Notes under the pieces: generated by a model
Database searches by the model: none
What the model was told of the DNA's origin: nothing
Seen by the model: the letters and a program-made list of their open reading frames with translations, nothing else
In this document: positions 7,553 to 34,027 of the stretch, one piece after another
Layout of the letters: the number at the start of each line of letters is the position of its first letter
How positions within the stretch are numbered: position 1 is the stretch's first letter
Made by a program: the position numbers and the translations under genes
Assembly: GCA_028066595.1 (NCBI GenBank)
Contig: JALCBJ010000053.1
Location: 1 to 36,952, forward strand
Source: Thermoanaerobaculia bacterium
GTDB taxonomy: Bacteria > Acidobacteriota > Thermoanaerobaculia > Multivoradales > J023
Direction: 5' to 3'
Length of the DNA stretch: 36,952 nt

Positions 7553-7624
7553 GCTACGGCGGAGCCTCCCGTCGCATCCTTGATCAGAGTGCCGGCGGAG
7601 GCCGAGCGGCGGGAGATGGTCTTC

Positions 7625-8326
7625 ATGAGTGAAGCCGAGGCACCCGACCGAGACGAGGTCCAGATCAGGCACCAGCAGACGCAGGTGCAGGGGCGTTATC
7701 TCGTCTGGCGTGGTCCCGAAGCGTCGAATCGACCGCCTCTGCTCGTCGCCACACACGGTTACGGAGAGGATGCCGGCTCGATCCTGCGCGAGGTCCGCAA
7801 GATCCCGAGCGTCGATGGCTGGCTGGTGGTATCGGTCGATGCACCCCACCCGTTCTACACCAAGAAGGGTGACGTGGTGCGCTGTTGGATGACCAAAATC
7901 GACCGCGAGCAGGCCATCGCTCACAACACCGCCTATGTCACGGATGTCGTCGAAGCCGTCCGGCAGTCGGAGAACACGAGCGACATCCTTGTCTTCGCCG
8001 GGTTTTCCCAGGGTGTCGCCATGGCTTGGCGGGGCCTCGCGGGTTGCCTGCGCCGGGGCATGGAGGCTCATGGTCTCCTCGCCCTGGCAGCCGACGTGCC
8101 ACCGGATATCGCGGCAGATCCACCCCCCGGTATTCCCCCAGTACTCTTGGGCCGGGGAACGAGAGACGAGTGGTACTCGGCCAAGAAGATGGAGCAGGAT
8201 CTCCACGTACTCGAAGAGCTAGAGGTCGACGTCACGCCTTGCGTCTTCGAAGACGGCCACCTCTGGGCCACTGAGTACCTGGCGGCAGCCGACGTCTTCC
8301 TGCGGCGGGTCTCGGATCAAGCCTAG
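7625..8326 (+). CDS. alpha/beta hydrolase, phospholipase/carboxylesterase-like
   Basis: The 233-residue protein belongs to the small serine-hydrolase group of cytoplasmic carboxylesterases and lysophospholipases. The nucleophile elbow is GFSQG with Ser128, the acid is Asp181 in RGTRDEWY, and the base is His212 in EDGHLW, which is the order expected for the family. THGYGED near residue 44 is the oxyanion-loop region. No signal peptide or membrane segment is seen. ATG 7625 is preferred because GGGAG at 7611-7615 sits 9 nt before it; ATG 7616 is in frame but touches that site. It follows the trp-nitrilase terminator, so it likely has its own promoter. The substrate is unknown. Confidence 0.85.
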   Translation: MSEAEAPDRDEVQIRHQQTQVQGRYLVWRGPEASNRPPLLVATHGYGEDAGSILREVRKIPSVDGWLVVSVDAPHPFYTKKGDVVRCWMTKIDREQAIAHNTAYVTDVVEAVRQSENTSDILVFAGFSQGVAMAWRGLAGCLRRGMEAHGLLALAADVPPDIAADPPPGIPPVLLGRGTRDEWYSAKKMEQDLHVLEELEVDVTPCVFEDGHLWATEYLAAADVFLRRVSDQA

Positions 8327-29799: not shown

Positions 29800-31161
29800 T
29801 TACCAGTTCGCTCCCTGGGTCGCGCCGTAGATCAGGAGGACGAAGATGGCCAAGGGACACACATAGCGCACAAGGAAGCCCCAAACCGGAACCGCTGGCA
29901 TCTTGTGACCGCCGTGTTCAATCGCGGCGACGGCCGCCTTGATGCCCCACTTCCAGCCAACGAAGATACAGATCAACATGGCGCCAAACGTGAGGAAGTA
30001 GGTTCCACAGAGCATATCCACGATGTCGAGGAAGCCCTTCTTTTCGGTGATCCTAGAGAGGGAAGCACTGGCGCCGAGAGACAAGGCACTGGGAACCGCC
30101 AGCGCAAAGCAGGAACTCGCGACGGCCCAAGTCGCCCTCTCACGTCGCCATCCCCGCTCATCGACGAGGTAGGCTACGATGACTTCCAGCAGGCTGATGG
30201 TCGACGTTAGAGCGGCGATCGACAGCAGGCCGTAGAAGATGAACGCCATTAGGTTGCTGGCCGGCATTGCGTCGAAGATGCCGCCCATGACCACGAAGAT
30301 CAGCCCAGGTCCTTTGTCAGGCTCAGCGCCTACGAGAAATAGGGCCGGAAAGATGACGAGTCCAGCCAGGATGGCGATGCAAGTGTCGAAGACGGCGATC
30401 GTCATGGCCGACGCCGGCAAATTCTCTTCCTTCGGCAAGTAGGAACCGTAGGTGATCATAGCGCCCATGCCGAGGGAAAGGCTGAAGAGCGCCTGGCCAA
30501 GTGCCGACACGATCCCCTGGAAAGAGATTTCGTCGAGCTGGGGCTTGAACATGAAGGCCAGGCCCTCACCCGCCGTCGGCAAAGTAAGCGCGCGGGCTAC
30601 CAAAATCAACAGGAAGACGAAGAGGATCGGCATGAGCCATGTTGCCGCCTTCTCGATGCCGCCTCCGATGCCCTTGCGCACGACCAGTGCGGTCACGAGC
30701 AGGAAGCCGAACGATACTCCGATCATCCATACTGGACTGGCGACGATCTGGCCGAAGATCTCGCCGCTTTGCGCAATGTCGATTCCTCCGAACTTGCCTC
30801 CGATGGCAAAACCAGCGTACATCGCGGTGAGGCCGGCGATCACCGAGTAGAACGACAGTATGCCAAAGCCGGTAAGCACGCCGAGTCCGCCGAGTGCTGG
30901 CCACCAGGAGTTAGGAACCAGCTTCTTGAATGCCGTTACCGGACTCGTCTGCGTACTGTTGCCGATGGACAGCTCTGCGAAAAGCACCGGCACACCAATG
31001 AGGAACACGAAGCCGATGTACATGATGACCCAGGCGCCACCCCCATGAGTGCCGGCGGTATAGGGGAATCGCCAAATATTGCCGAGGCCGATGGCGGAGC
31101 CGGCGGCGGCCAGGATGAAGCCGAAACGGGAATTGAACTTGCCGCGATCGAGAGTGGACAT
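29800..31161 (-). CDS. sodium:neurotransmitter symporter (NSS/SNF) family transporter
   Basis: The 453-residue inner-membrane protein imports an amino acid or related amine using the sodium gradient, like LeuT, Tyt1 and MhsT. The first membrane segment holds the signature GSAIGLGNIWRFPY, broken here as GSAIGLGN and IWRFPY, which makes the sodium and substrate sites. About eleven membrane segments are recognisable, the usual number for the bacterial short type. The start ATG at 31159-31161 has GGAGA about 6 nt upstream; an in-frame start further out would add 25 residues without family likeness. No regulator or metabolic gene is adjacent that would name the substrate. The next gene upstream is divergent. 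Confidence 0.9.
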   Translation of the reverse strand: MSTLDRGKFNSRFGFILAAAGSAIGLGNIWRFPYTAGTHGGGAWVIMYIGFVFLIGVPVLFAELSIGNSTQTSPVTAFKKLVPNSWWPALGGLGVLTGFGILSFYSVIAGLTAMYAGFAIGGKFGGIDIAQSGEIFGQIVASPVWMIGVSFGFLLVTALVVRKGIGGGIEKAATWLMPILFVFLLILVARALTLPTAGEGLAFMFKPQLDEISFQGIVSALGQALFSLSLGMGAMITYGSYLPKEENLPASAMTIAVFDTCIAILAGLVIFPALFLVGAEPDKGPGLIFVVMGGIFDAMPASNLMAFIFYGLLSIAALTSTISLLEVIVAYLVDERGWRRERATWAVASSCFALAVPSALSLGASASLSRITEKKGFLDIVDMLCGTYFLTFGAMLICIFVGWKWGIKAAVAAIEHGGHKMPAVPVWGFLVRYVCPLAIFVLLIYGATQGANW

Positions 31162-31487
31162 TGCAAGGTCTCCTGGCGTTGGGACGCGCGGAGAGCTGTT
31201 CGGGGGGCCCTGAGAGCGCGTTTTGGCGGGAATCATTGCCGAAAGAAGTGTCGGTATCGTACACCAGGCTCCTGGTCGCAGAGCTTGGGCCGGAGCCTGC
31301 TACACTCGCCGAGCCGGCAAGCTCCGCGTCACGTGTTGCGACCGCGCCCCGCTCGGCAGCCTCGGAGAGCCCGCGGGTCGCACGCCGAAATTCGTGATGT
31401 GTCGAGGGGTCGGTTTCATCCCGAAGAACGCATCTTCACGTACCGGCTCTGCCCGAATCCGCCCGGCAGCCGAAGCCGAGAGGTTCT
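31162..31487. other. divergent intergenic region between the symporter and the ACT-helicase gene
   Basis: No gene is seen. The left part carries the symporter's ribosome site on the minus strand. On the plus strand a TGCTACACT at 31298-31306 may be an extended -10, which would give a leader of about 175 nt for the helicase gene. GAGAGG is at 31478-31483, 4 nt before its ATG. Confidence 0.5.
31301..31306 (+). promoter_or_regulatory. possible extended -10 (TACACT, in TGCTACACT) for the ACT-helicase gene
   Basis: TGCTACACT fits the extended -10 pattern found before other genes. No -35 with normal spacing is seen. A start here would leave a long untranslated leader, a common feature of cold-regulated RNA helicase genes, but no known motif is recognised. 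Confidence 0.27.
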
Positions 31488-33575
31488 ATGAGTTCCAAGT
31501 CCCGATCCCAGGCCTGTCCGGAGGAGTCGGACGGTACCCGCCGTCTCGCCCTCCGCGTGCATCCCGGAGCCTATGCCGTCTGTCGCATGCACCCGCGTGC
31601 GCGTATTCCTAAGTGGATTCACGACGCAGCTGTCTACAGCGCCACTCGTACGCATGACGAGCTGACCCTTGTGGCGCCCCACGAGCTCGTACCCAACGGT
31701 GTCCACCACGAGGGTGGTCGCCGGATGGTGCAGGTTGTAGGTGAGTTCGATTTCGAAGAGATCGGCGTACTCGCTTCGATCGCTTCGCCGCTCGCCGAAG
31801 CCGAGATCAGTATCTATGTACTGTCCACCTTCGCAACCGACTACTTGTTCTTGCTGGAGGATGATCTCGATGACGCGCTCGATGTGCTGGAGGATGCGGG
31901 TCACTTGATCCTCGAGGAGGATGAGCCCGCGGAATCCGCAGGCGACCGACCATCCGAAGACGACCTCTTCGCAGAAGCCGAGCGCAGGGAAGCCGATAGT
32001 CCCGATGACCGCCAGCAAGGCGACGAGCCTGGAGAGCGTCTCGAGGGACCTCAAGACGAAGAGGAGACGGTTCGTCTCACCGCCCATGCCGCCGTCTCGA
32101 CCGATCAGACGTTCGAGAGCTTGATGCGCACCGCGGTCGACGACGAGGACGACAGTTGGGGCGAAGAGGACGACGCCGAGGTTTCGCCGGAGCGTGAAAT
32201 GCCTCCCGAGCCCGATGCTTTGCCCGCCGACGAGCACGAGGAGTTCGACCGCGGCGAAGAGGACGGCGCCGAAGCTTCGCCGGAGAGCGAACCGCCTTCC
32301 GAGCTCGATGCTCTGCCCGCCGACGAGCGGGAAGAGTTCGACGAGAACGACCTGGAAGAGGGTATGTTCACCGGCGCCATTCCTCAGGTCGGGCTCGAGG
32401 TCATCGAAGACACTTGGCAGAGTCTCGGACTGTCCGCGGCCATCATCGACACCATCGAAGGTCTGGGCTTCAGTCATCCGACGTCGATTCAGGCAGCGGT
32501 GATTCCCATCGCGCTCGAAGGTACGGACATCATCGGTCTGGCGCAAACGGGTTCGGGAAAGACCGCGGCCTTCTGTTTGCCTCTGGCCGAACGCCTGACC
32601 CACGGTCGCGGGGTGCGCGGGCTGATCCTCTGTCCCACGCGTGAGATTGCGCTGCAGACCAAGGCGTTTCTCGATTCCTTCGGCCGCGACCACGAGCTGG
32701 AGACCGCCGTTATCATCGGTGGCGTCAAGTTTGGTCCACAGATTCAGGCGCTGCGGCGCAAGCCCGACATCCTCGTGGCCACTCCTGGTCGCTTGGCGGA
32801 TCACATGCGGCGACGGAACGTCCACCTTCGGGACGTCGAGGAACTGGTGCTCGACGAGGCCGATCACATGTTGGACCTCGGCTTCCTGCCGCAGATCCAG
32901 GAGATCTTGACTCAGGTTCCGGAGGATCGGCGCACCATGATGTTCTCGGCCACCATGCCGCCACCGATCGAGCGCCTCGCTCAGCGCTTCATGGACGATC
33001 CCTACCTGGTCGACCAGCGTCCGGTGGACAAGGTTGCTTCGGGGATCGAGCATCGTCTGTATCTGGTGACGCAGGACAGCGACAAGAAAGAGGCGCTCGT
33101 GCAGTTGCTGAAGGAGGTCGAAGGCTCGACGCTGGTCTTCGCGCGCCGCAAGATCGATGTCGAGTGGCTCGCACGACAGCTACAGAACGCTGGCGTCGAG
33201 GCCGAGCGCATTCATTCCGACCGAACGCAGGCCCAGCGCGTCCGGGCGCTCAAGGGCTTCCGCCAAGGCAGCACGAGGATTCTCGCCGCCACCGATGTCG
33301 CAGCACGAGGTATCGACGTCCCGCGGCTTCAGCACGTGGTCAACTACGAGTTGCCCGATACCGTCGAGGACTACGTTCATCGAGCCGGACGCACGGCCCG
33401 TGGTCAGGCCGTCGGCATCGTCTCGACCATCGGTACATGGCAAGACAAAGTCATGATCGGCGACATCGAGCGGGTCATCGGTAGGACCATTCCGCGCCAC
33501 GAGCTCGAGGGTATCGAGCACTACAAGGAACTGAAAAAGAAGCGGGGCGGCTTGCGGCGCCGACGTCTTCTCTGA
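31488..33575 (+). CDS. ACT-domain / DEAD-box RNA helicase fusion protein
   Basis: One 695-residue frame without interruption. Residues 19-142 match the bacterial ACT_7-type ACT family of stand-alone amino-acid sensors: PGAYAVCRM, VYSATRTHDELTLV, GVLASIASPLAEA, LSTFATDY (Asp118) and LEDAGH at the end. Residues 143-325 are a very acidic linker with a tandem repeat. Then comes a full DEAD-box helicase: Q motif GFSHPTSIQ from 327, AQTGSGKT 352-359, PTREIALQ, DEAD 456-459, SAT 487-489, ATDVAARGID, and HRAGRTAR 631-638. A basic tail (KKKRGGLRRRR) may bind RNA. DEAD-box proteins unwind short RNA duplexes with ATP. I infer that amino-acid binding may control the helicase. GAGAGG precedes ATG 31488. 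The next gene follows after 8 nt. Confidence 0.9.
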   Translation: MSSKSRSQACPEESDGTRRLALRVHPGAYAVCRMHPRARIPKWIHDAAVYSATRTHDELTLVAPHELVPNGVHHEGGRRMVQVVGEFDFEEIGVLASIASPLAEAEISIYVLSTFATDYLFLLEDDLDDALDVLEDAGHLILEEDEPAESAGDRPSEDDLFAEAERREADSPDDRQQGDEPGERLEGPQDEEETVRLTAHAAVSTDQTFESLMRTAVDDEDDSWGEEDDAEVSPEREMPPEPDALPADEHEEFDRGEEDGAEASPESEPPSELDALPADEREEFDENDLEEGMFTGAIPQVGLEVIEDTWQSLGLSAAIIDTIEGLGFSHPTSIQAAVIPIALEGTDIIGLAQTGSGKTAAFCLPLAERLTHGRGVRGLILCPTREIALQTKAFLDSFGRDHELETAVIIGGVKFGPQIQALRRKPDILVATPGRLADHMRRRNVHLRDVEELVLDEADHMLDLGFLPQIQEILTQVPEDRRTMMFSATMPPPIERLAQRFMDDPYLVDQRPVDKVASGIEHRLYLVTQDSDKKEALVQLLKEVEGSTLVFARRKIDVEWLARQLQNAGVEAERIHSDRTQAQRVRALKGFRQGSTRILAATDVAARGIDVPRLQHVVNYELPDTVEDYVHRAGRTARGQAVGIVSTIGTWQDKVMIGDIERVIGRTIPRHELEGIEHYKELKKKRGGLRRRRLL
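32160..32342 (+). repeat. two tandem 90-bp repeats in the acidic linker of the ACT-helicase protein
   Basis: Copies at 32160-32249 and 32253-32342, with a 93-nt period, start with GGCGAAGAGGACG and end with GAGTTCGAC. Each codes for a segment with GEED, SPE and DALPADE. The copies differ by base substitutions but keep the frame, so the linker lengthened by duplication. Confidence 0.85.
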
Positions 33576-33583
33576 GGTGGGTC

Positions 33584-34027
33584 ATGCCTGCGTCGCTGCA
33601 GAGATCCGAAGATCTTGCCGAGTTCAAGAGGCGTATCGCCGGGCTGGAGCCCGACACTCGTGGGCTTTGGGGCACCATGGATGCCCACCAGATGCTTTGC
33701 CACGTGTCGGATCAGATACGCGTGGCGCTCGGAGATCTGCCGACAAAAGACCGCTCGTCACTGTTCACCCGAACCGTCCTGCCCTTCCTCATCATCCGCC
33801 TCGGAATGGAGCCGCCCAAGGGCAAAGTGAAGACCGCGCCGGAGATGAAGACCACCGGGGCGACGGACTGGGAGGCAGATCGGGAGGCGCTCTACGGGCT
33901 GATGGATCGTATGGCCGTAGCCACCGAAACGACGCGTCATCCGATGTTTGGTTTGCTTTCGGCGGAGACTTGGGGGCTTCTCAGTGCGCGCCACCTCGAC
34001 TACCACTTACGGCAGTTCGGGGCATGA
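33584..34027 (+). CDS. DUF1569 / DinB-like protein
   Basis: The 147-residue protein resembles DUF1569, a branch of the DinB/YfiT-like four-helix group. It has LWGTMDAHQMLCHVSDQIRVALGD, shown here in two parts (LWGTMDAHQMLCHV and SDQIRVALGD), with His residues that often bind a metal in the DinB fold, and ends with SARHLDYHLRQFG, which holds the other His. Some relatives are thiol-dependent metalloenzymes, but most have no known role. The start is ATG 33584 with GAGG about 7 nt upstream, 8 nt after the helicase stop, so the two are probably co-transcribed. A functional link to the helicase is not evident. Confidence 0.78.
   Translation: MPASLQRSEDLAEFKRRIAGLEPDTRGLWGTMDAHQMLCHVSDQIRVALGDLPTKDRSSLFTRTVLPFLIIRLGMEPPKGKVKTAPEMKTTGATDWEADREALYGLMDRMAVATETTRHPMFGLLSAETWGLLSARHLDYHLRQFGA

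Follow-up and report, generated by a model that had tools for sequence, protein, structure and literature searches.

Could the supply of amino acids be read directly by an enzyme that remodels RNA? The question is raised by a single gene in a 36,952-nucleotide stretch of DNA, hereafter the window, from a Thermoanaerobaculia bacterium of the phylum Acidobacteriota (contig JALCBJ010000053.1, part of a 7.5 Mb genome assembly). An earlier sequence-only reading of the window proposed that this gene joins an ACT-domain amino-acid sensor to a DEAD-box RNA helicase, and knew of no such fusion. Our search of a library of open-access papers for an ACT domain together with a DEAD-box or RNA helicase likewise found no described ACT-DEAD protein, let alone the many published examples that would have counted against the proposal. 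Here, we ask whether the fusion is real, how it arose, and how well its head, its surroundings and its history fit a role in sensing.

One frame encodes an ACT head, an acidic linker and a DEAD-box motor

The fusion gene (31488..33575, plus strand) is a single open frame encoding 695 aa, present at exactly the positions where an unbroken frame had been reported, and it is kept across seven genomes. The product consists of a CASTOR/Atu0741-type double ACT unit, an acidic linker of predicted disorder and a complete DEAD-box core, in that order, the domains being located by hmmscan. GC-rich DNA yields many long empty frames, and a 545-codon frame runs antisense over the fusion gene (window 31416-33053, minus strand), most likely as a GC-rich chance frame. 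We give practically no weight to the idea that the fusion itself is of this kind, or that it is a sequencing or assembly artefact: the same fusion is found in assemblies from four genera, and strong purifying selection acts on both of its domains. Rather than being absent from relatives, the joint recurs in 7/7 genomes of the family, and this recurrence rules out the artefact reading.

The head had been described as one ACT_7-like domain at residues 19-142. The ACT similarity of this segment was borne out by Pfam, by phmmer and by a structural model; the single domain was not, as the head is a two-part ACT unit that corresponds to one half of CASTOR1. Against Pfam gathering cut-offs of 27 bits for each model, A9CJY8-like_N (PF21631), the first ACT-like part, scored 45 bits over residues 27-70 (31566..31697, plus strand; E = 6.7e-12), and ACT_7 (PF13840) followed with 60 bits over residues 79-136 (31722..31895, plus strand; E = 1.5e-16). 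When solved structures were searched by phmmer, residues 19-144 matched Atu0741 (PDB 1zhv) with E = 3e-21, and the head also matched CASTOR1 (E ~1e-13). Structure prediction gave a concordant picture. For residues 18-144, modeled by AlphaFold together with 56 relatives, the mean pLDDT was 94, and the predicted fold matched 1zhv over the whole unit (Z 19.6, 1.8 Å, 127 residues, 35% identity). Matches to arginine-bound CASTOR1 (Z 12) and to the regulatory domains of aspartate kinases (Z about 10) were also obtained, and the suspected kinship of the head with CASTOR proteins is thus upheld by both sequence and predicted fold. CASTOR1 and the aspartate-kinase regulatory domains bind amino acids (PMC5020642, PMC5187391).

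These matches also define what sets the window protein apart. Atu0741 is a bacterial protein of A9CJY8-like_N plus ACT_7 that matches the whole window head; unlike the window protein, it stands alone, at about 134 aa, and has no helicase. No paper naming Atu0741 was found in the open-access library searched. CASTOR1 and CASTOR2, of the human cytosolic arginine sensor of mTORC1, resemble the head in one half of the chain, and the window head has D118 and S108 as equivalents of CASTOR1 D304 and S111 (see below). However, CASTOR1 carries four ACT domains per chain, lacks an enzyme domain and has GATOR2 as its target, whereas the window head precedes a helicase. Another arrangement of ACT domains, a tandem of ACT_3 and ACT_7 at the C-terminus of a protein, was seen in genome G042 (L036:7569-8603, minus strand).

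The head is followed by a linker that occupies residues 145-292 (31920..32363, plus strand). At about 150 residues it is shorter than the roughly 180 first estimated; its acidic character had been recognized correctly, with Asp and Glu making up 40% of residues 142-292 and a predicted net charge of -51. A full-length AlphaFold model, of low confidence (pLDDT 57, 6 sequences) and used for linker disorder only, placed residues 145-304 near pLDDT 30, as for a disordered linker. The linker is 200-373 residues long in relatives, so that its length varies twofold across the family (about 150 to 373), and its frame is kept with little conserved sequence; a negative charge is predicted for the linkers of 6/6 complete fusions.

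The remainder of the protein is the motor, for which a complete DEAD-box core had been proposed at residues 327-638. Pfam agrees, with DEAD at residues 332-496 (PF00270, 32481..32975, plus strand; E = 1.9e-45) and Helicase_C at residues 533-638 (PF00271, 33084..33401, plus strand; E = 1e-28). Motifs Q, I, Ia, Ib, II, III, V and VI of DEAD-box RNA helicases (SF2) are all present, including TGSGKT, PTREIA, TPGR, DEAD and SAT in the first domain and ARGID and HRAGRTAR in the second. The best solved match is CshA (5ivl, E = 8e-86). CshA is also the best NCBIfam match, at 376 bits against an equivalog cut-off of 646 bits (NF053631); the helicase is therefore not CshA itself, and its motor is, as far as sequence classifies it, a general CshA/RhlE-like bacterial DEAD-box RNA helicase. 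The CshA/RhlE/DbpA types share the complete core with all of its motifs, but the matched part of their models has no counterpart to the N-terminal head and linker. The window helicase further differs from these types in its short C-terminal tail, RRRRLL (33555..33572, plus strand), in which R691-L695 are invariant in the alignment of all six complete fusion proteins.

The fusion is conserved and under selection in one family

We found the ACT-DEAD architecture in every one of the seven genomes examined from its uncultured Acidobacteriota family, which span four genera. Six of these fusions are intact, encoding proteins of 695-939 residues; in the seventh genome (G004) the ACT ends one contig (C277) and the helicase opens another (C422), in an orientation that fits a split fusion. 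Each family genome (7/7) has one ACT of the fused type, and that copy is the fused one. Comparison of two species of genus g3 gave pN/pS values of 0.12 (head), 0.59 (linker) and 0.07 (helicase), and the low values at both ends indicate that head and helicase are kept by purifying selection. In a tree of helicase cores the seven fused cores formed one clade (100/99), with no settled order among families; the single clade fits one fusion event.

Elsewhere the ACT stands alone; it was matched in 29 of 59 relatives and in 101 of 396 genomes of the phylum. None of the long ACT-bearing frames read from this 396-genome sample held a DEAD domain; these frames proved to be stand-alone ACT genes behind seemingly chance upstream frames. 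Among the best 80 ACT relatives listed from 85,000 genomes, none outside the family had a helicase in the same locus, and the loci with both ACT and helicase (L076, L086, L132 and L137) all belonged to this family. Outside it, among the matches listed, ACT and the orthologous helicase were found only as separate genes.

The ACT unit was added at the ancestral start of the helicase

The orthologous helicase has strong matches in nearly all of the 59 genomes of the order. Elsewhere in the order and class, outside this family, it is 56-64% identical and usually encoded on its own by some 400 codons, and the stand-alone products open with M(F/Y)TGAIPQ or a sequence close to it. This start persists as a relict within the window protein, as MFTGAIPQ at residues 293-300 (32364..32387, plus strand), and as LFTGAIPQ or similar in most fused relatives. 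Since the ancestral start is still readable at residue 293, we conclude that the ACT unit and linker were added directly upstream of it. The relict start of the window gene is an ATG (32364) that follows the purine-rich GGAAGAGGG, and the gene might thereby give two products, the fusion and a stand-alone helicase initiated internally. We consider this very improbable, as none of the five remaining complete fusion genes has ATG at this position (the codon is CTG, CTC, TTG, CTT or CTA) and an internal ATG start is therefore not conserved.

Two genomes of family f3 (G046 and G016) carry a stand-alone ACT gene on the strand of the orthologous helicase, about 3 kb upstream of it (in G046, L039:3373-4728 and 7615-8088, minus strand). 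This proximity might be a relic of linkage that preceded fusion; in most other genomes the stand-alone ACT and the orthologous helicase are on separate contigs.

The ACT unit is not the only head on this helicase. Within the same order, genome G013 of family f8 encodes an orthologous helicase with a PhzC-PhzF head (PF02567, E = 2.9e-34; above the cut-off of NCBIfam PhzF_family), forming a PhzC-PhzF isomerase-DEAD fusion with a Pro-rich linker (L180:4035-6509, minus strand). Two further f8 genomes have a Phd/YefM-antitoxin-like head, which in each falls slightly short of the Pfam cut-off (E about 1e-6), on the orthologous helicase (G027, L178:2749-4473, minus strand; G021, L181:744-2372, plus strand). 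Each f8 head is joined via a low-complexity linker upstream of an AIPQHPV motif. Unrelated heads in a sister family imply that the N-terminus of the helicase accepts fusions readily. The ACT fusion is less exceptional in this light, and it becomes likelier that some of these fusions are tolerated and not regulatory.

The assortment of heads and low-complexity linkers, together with a joint located at the old helicase start, is what would be expected if the fusion were an evolutionary by-product, in which a gene lying upstream became fused in frame to the helicase while head and motor kept their separate old jobs, linked by shared expression only. This account is unlikely in our view. ACT-DEAD has remained fixed across four genera though most synteny has been lost, no family genome has split the head from the helicase again, and the constraint on the head differs from that on the linker as it would for a working domain.

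The putative ligand loop is retained, and the CASTOR1 pocket is not copied

In CASTOR1 the guanidinium of arginine is held by the side chain of D304 and by the main-chain carbonyls of G274, T300, F301 and F303, and its amino group by S111 (PMC5020642, PMC5187391). Alignment maps D304 of CASTOR1 to D118 of the window protein, S111 to S108 and E277 to E91; D118 lies in the loop STFATDY (residues 113-119, 31824..31844, plus strand). Residue conservation was counted on 27 sequences gathered without any sequence pattern. The ACT set drawn from genome contigs was unusable for this count because its scan pattern required the STFDTDY loop. D118, T114 and T117 were constant in 27/27 of the pattern-free sequences, stand-alone and fused forms alike, in line with the conserved Asp118 of the sequence-only reading. 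That reading had also pointed to an Ala in the loop, directly before Asp118. The Ala is real, though it is residue 116 (31833-31835) and sits two positions before D118. The accompanying remark that relatives are often acidic here proved an understatement: the residue is Asp in 26 of the 27 sequences, and the Ala is a peculiarity of the window protein, not of its family. Given Ala116, the ligand or partner in the window species may differ.

Other contacts of the CASTOR1 pocket have changed. The S108 position is Ser in the window, as in just 2/7 fused heads, and Gly in 5/7; the E91 position is Leu in 6/7, so the equivalent of CASTOR1 E277 is mostly absent from the fused family. The substitutions at these two positions show that the fused heads do not copy the CASTOR1 pocket. 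The acidic contact for a putative ligand is retained in D118, yet specificity is not readable from sequence.

D118 could equally serve protein contacts, because the same loop in the N-terminal half of CASTOR1 (Y118, Q119, D121) is the GATOR2-binding patch (PMC5187391). This second role of the loop, equivalent to F115-A116-D118 of the window protein, is the sort of precedent that would suit a head acting as a ligand-independent dimerization or docking module, one that pairs helicases or anchors them to a partner such as the ribosome or an enzyme of RNA decay, independently of amino acids. A long disordered linker suits tethering, the window protein is without the otherwise constant Asp116, and dimeric DEAD-box proteins are known, DDX21 being a reported example (PMC7721647). 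We nevertheless judge such a module somewhat unlikely as the role of the head. It leaves unexplained the invariance of D118 and T114 across stand-alone and fused forms, and it offers no reason for a fixed neighbor of the fusion gene, an amino-acid symporter.

An amino-acid symporter adjoins the fusion gene in all seven family genomes

The symporter gene (29800..31236, minus strand) encodes an NSS/SNF sodium-coupled amino-acid symporter (PF00209, E = 1e-54, 186 bits against a cut-off of 27). Its nearest solved protein by sequence is 4us3 (E = 8e-92), the structure of MhsT, which transports hydrophobic amino acids in a sodium-coupled manner. The gene adjoins the fusion in 7/7 family genomes, divergently in five and co-directionally in two, and each of these genomes has only about 2-4 NSS genes. 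In a tree, the adjacent symporters formed one clade (100/98), apart from the other NSS genes of the same genomes. The single clade led us to reject the idea that a paralogue had replaced the symporter in genus g4; the g4 genes are diverged orthologues in altered orientation. About 90 loci with stand-alone ACT genes showed no NSS gene nearby, and neither did the loci of helicase orthologues, which were shorter. Of the 69 other neighboring frames, just 2 had a homologue close to the fusion gene in a different genus, leaving the symporter as the sole widely conserved neighbor.

The adjacency was inherited within one family and is thus not seven independent events. It supports an amino-acid link without proving it, and of the circumstantial evidence for an amino-acid theme it is the strongest; the sequence-only reading did not have it. 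A search for a riboswitch or leader RNA near the fusion gene gave just one sub-threshold chance match, and no conserved motif emerged from the DNA that separates the symporter from the fusion gene, which is too diverged for confident alignment. On the other side of the fusion, a gene for a DUF1569 protein (window 33584-34027, plus strand) starts 8 bases past the stop codon and is perhaps co-transcribed; it is not conserved beside the fusion in relatives.

Discussion

Amino-acid regulation of the helicase through its ACT head is the leading explanation, and one that we advance tentatively. It is supported by a head with the sequence and predicted fold of amino-acid-binding ACT proteins, by the presence of D118 in all 27 relatives, by purifying selection on head and helicase, by the single, fused ACT copy of each family genome, and by the adjacent symporter. 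It is weakened by the interchangeable heads of the sister family, by a variable linker of predicted disorder, and by the double role of the loop equivalent to that of D118.

We envisage that, in the ancestor of the family, a DEAD-box helicase captured a stand-alone CASTOR/Atu0741-type ACT protein as its N-terminal head. The head most likely dimerizes, and we infer that its interface would bind an amino acid, possibly the one imported by the adjacent MhsT-like symporter. Binding would alter dimerization of the head or its association with a partner, and the altered state could in turn change the pairing of helicases, their location or their access to RNA, for which the acidic linker possibly competes. 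Because this long, disordered and acidic linker parts the head from the motor, control by tethering would be expected, and not control by rigid contact.

In its most complete form, the leading explanation describes an amino-acid-gated RNA helicase: a bacterial CASTOR-type sensor mounted on a DEAD-box motor, with a genetic link to the transporter of its ligand and with RNA remodeling set directly by amino-acid supply, within a helicase lineage that repeatedly takes metabolic or regulatory heads (ACT, PhzF, Phd/YefM-like). We regard this whole as possible, if doubtful. The repeated uptake of heads by one helicase lineage is notable in itself.

Long RelA/SpoT homologues (RSH) are reported to place an ACT-type domain, likewise, on an enzyme that works at the ribosome (PMC3153485, PMC7058999). 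The likeness is an analogy only. RSH is a different enzyme with a C-terminal ACT/RRM domain, whereas the window head is N-terminal.

If the head controls the helicase, the family would possess a direct bacterial route from amino-acid supply to RNA handling, independent of the alarmone ppGpp, and this route would rely on the fold through which arginine status reaches mTORC1 in animals. From the linked transporter, a few candidate ligands can be proposed, which makes the idea testable in vitro with one purified protein. The heads found in the sister family would, moreover, let this helicase serve as a natural experiment on the acquisition of regulators by enzymes.
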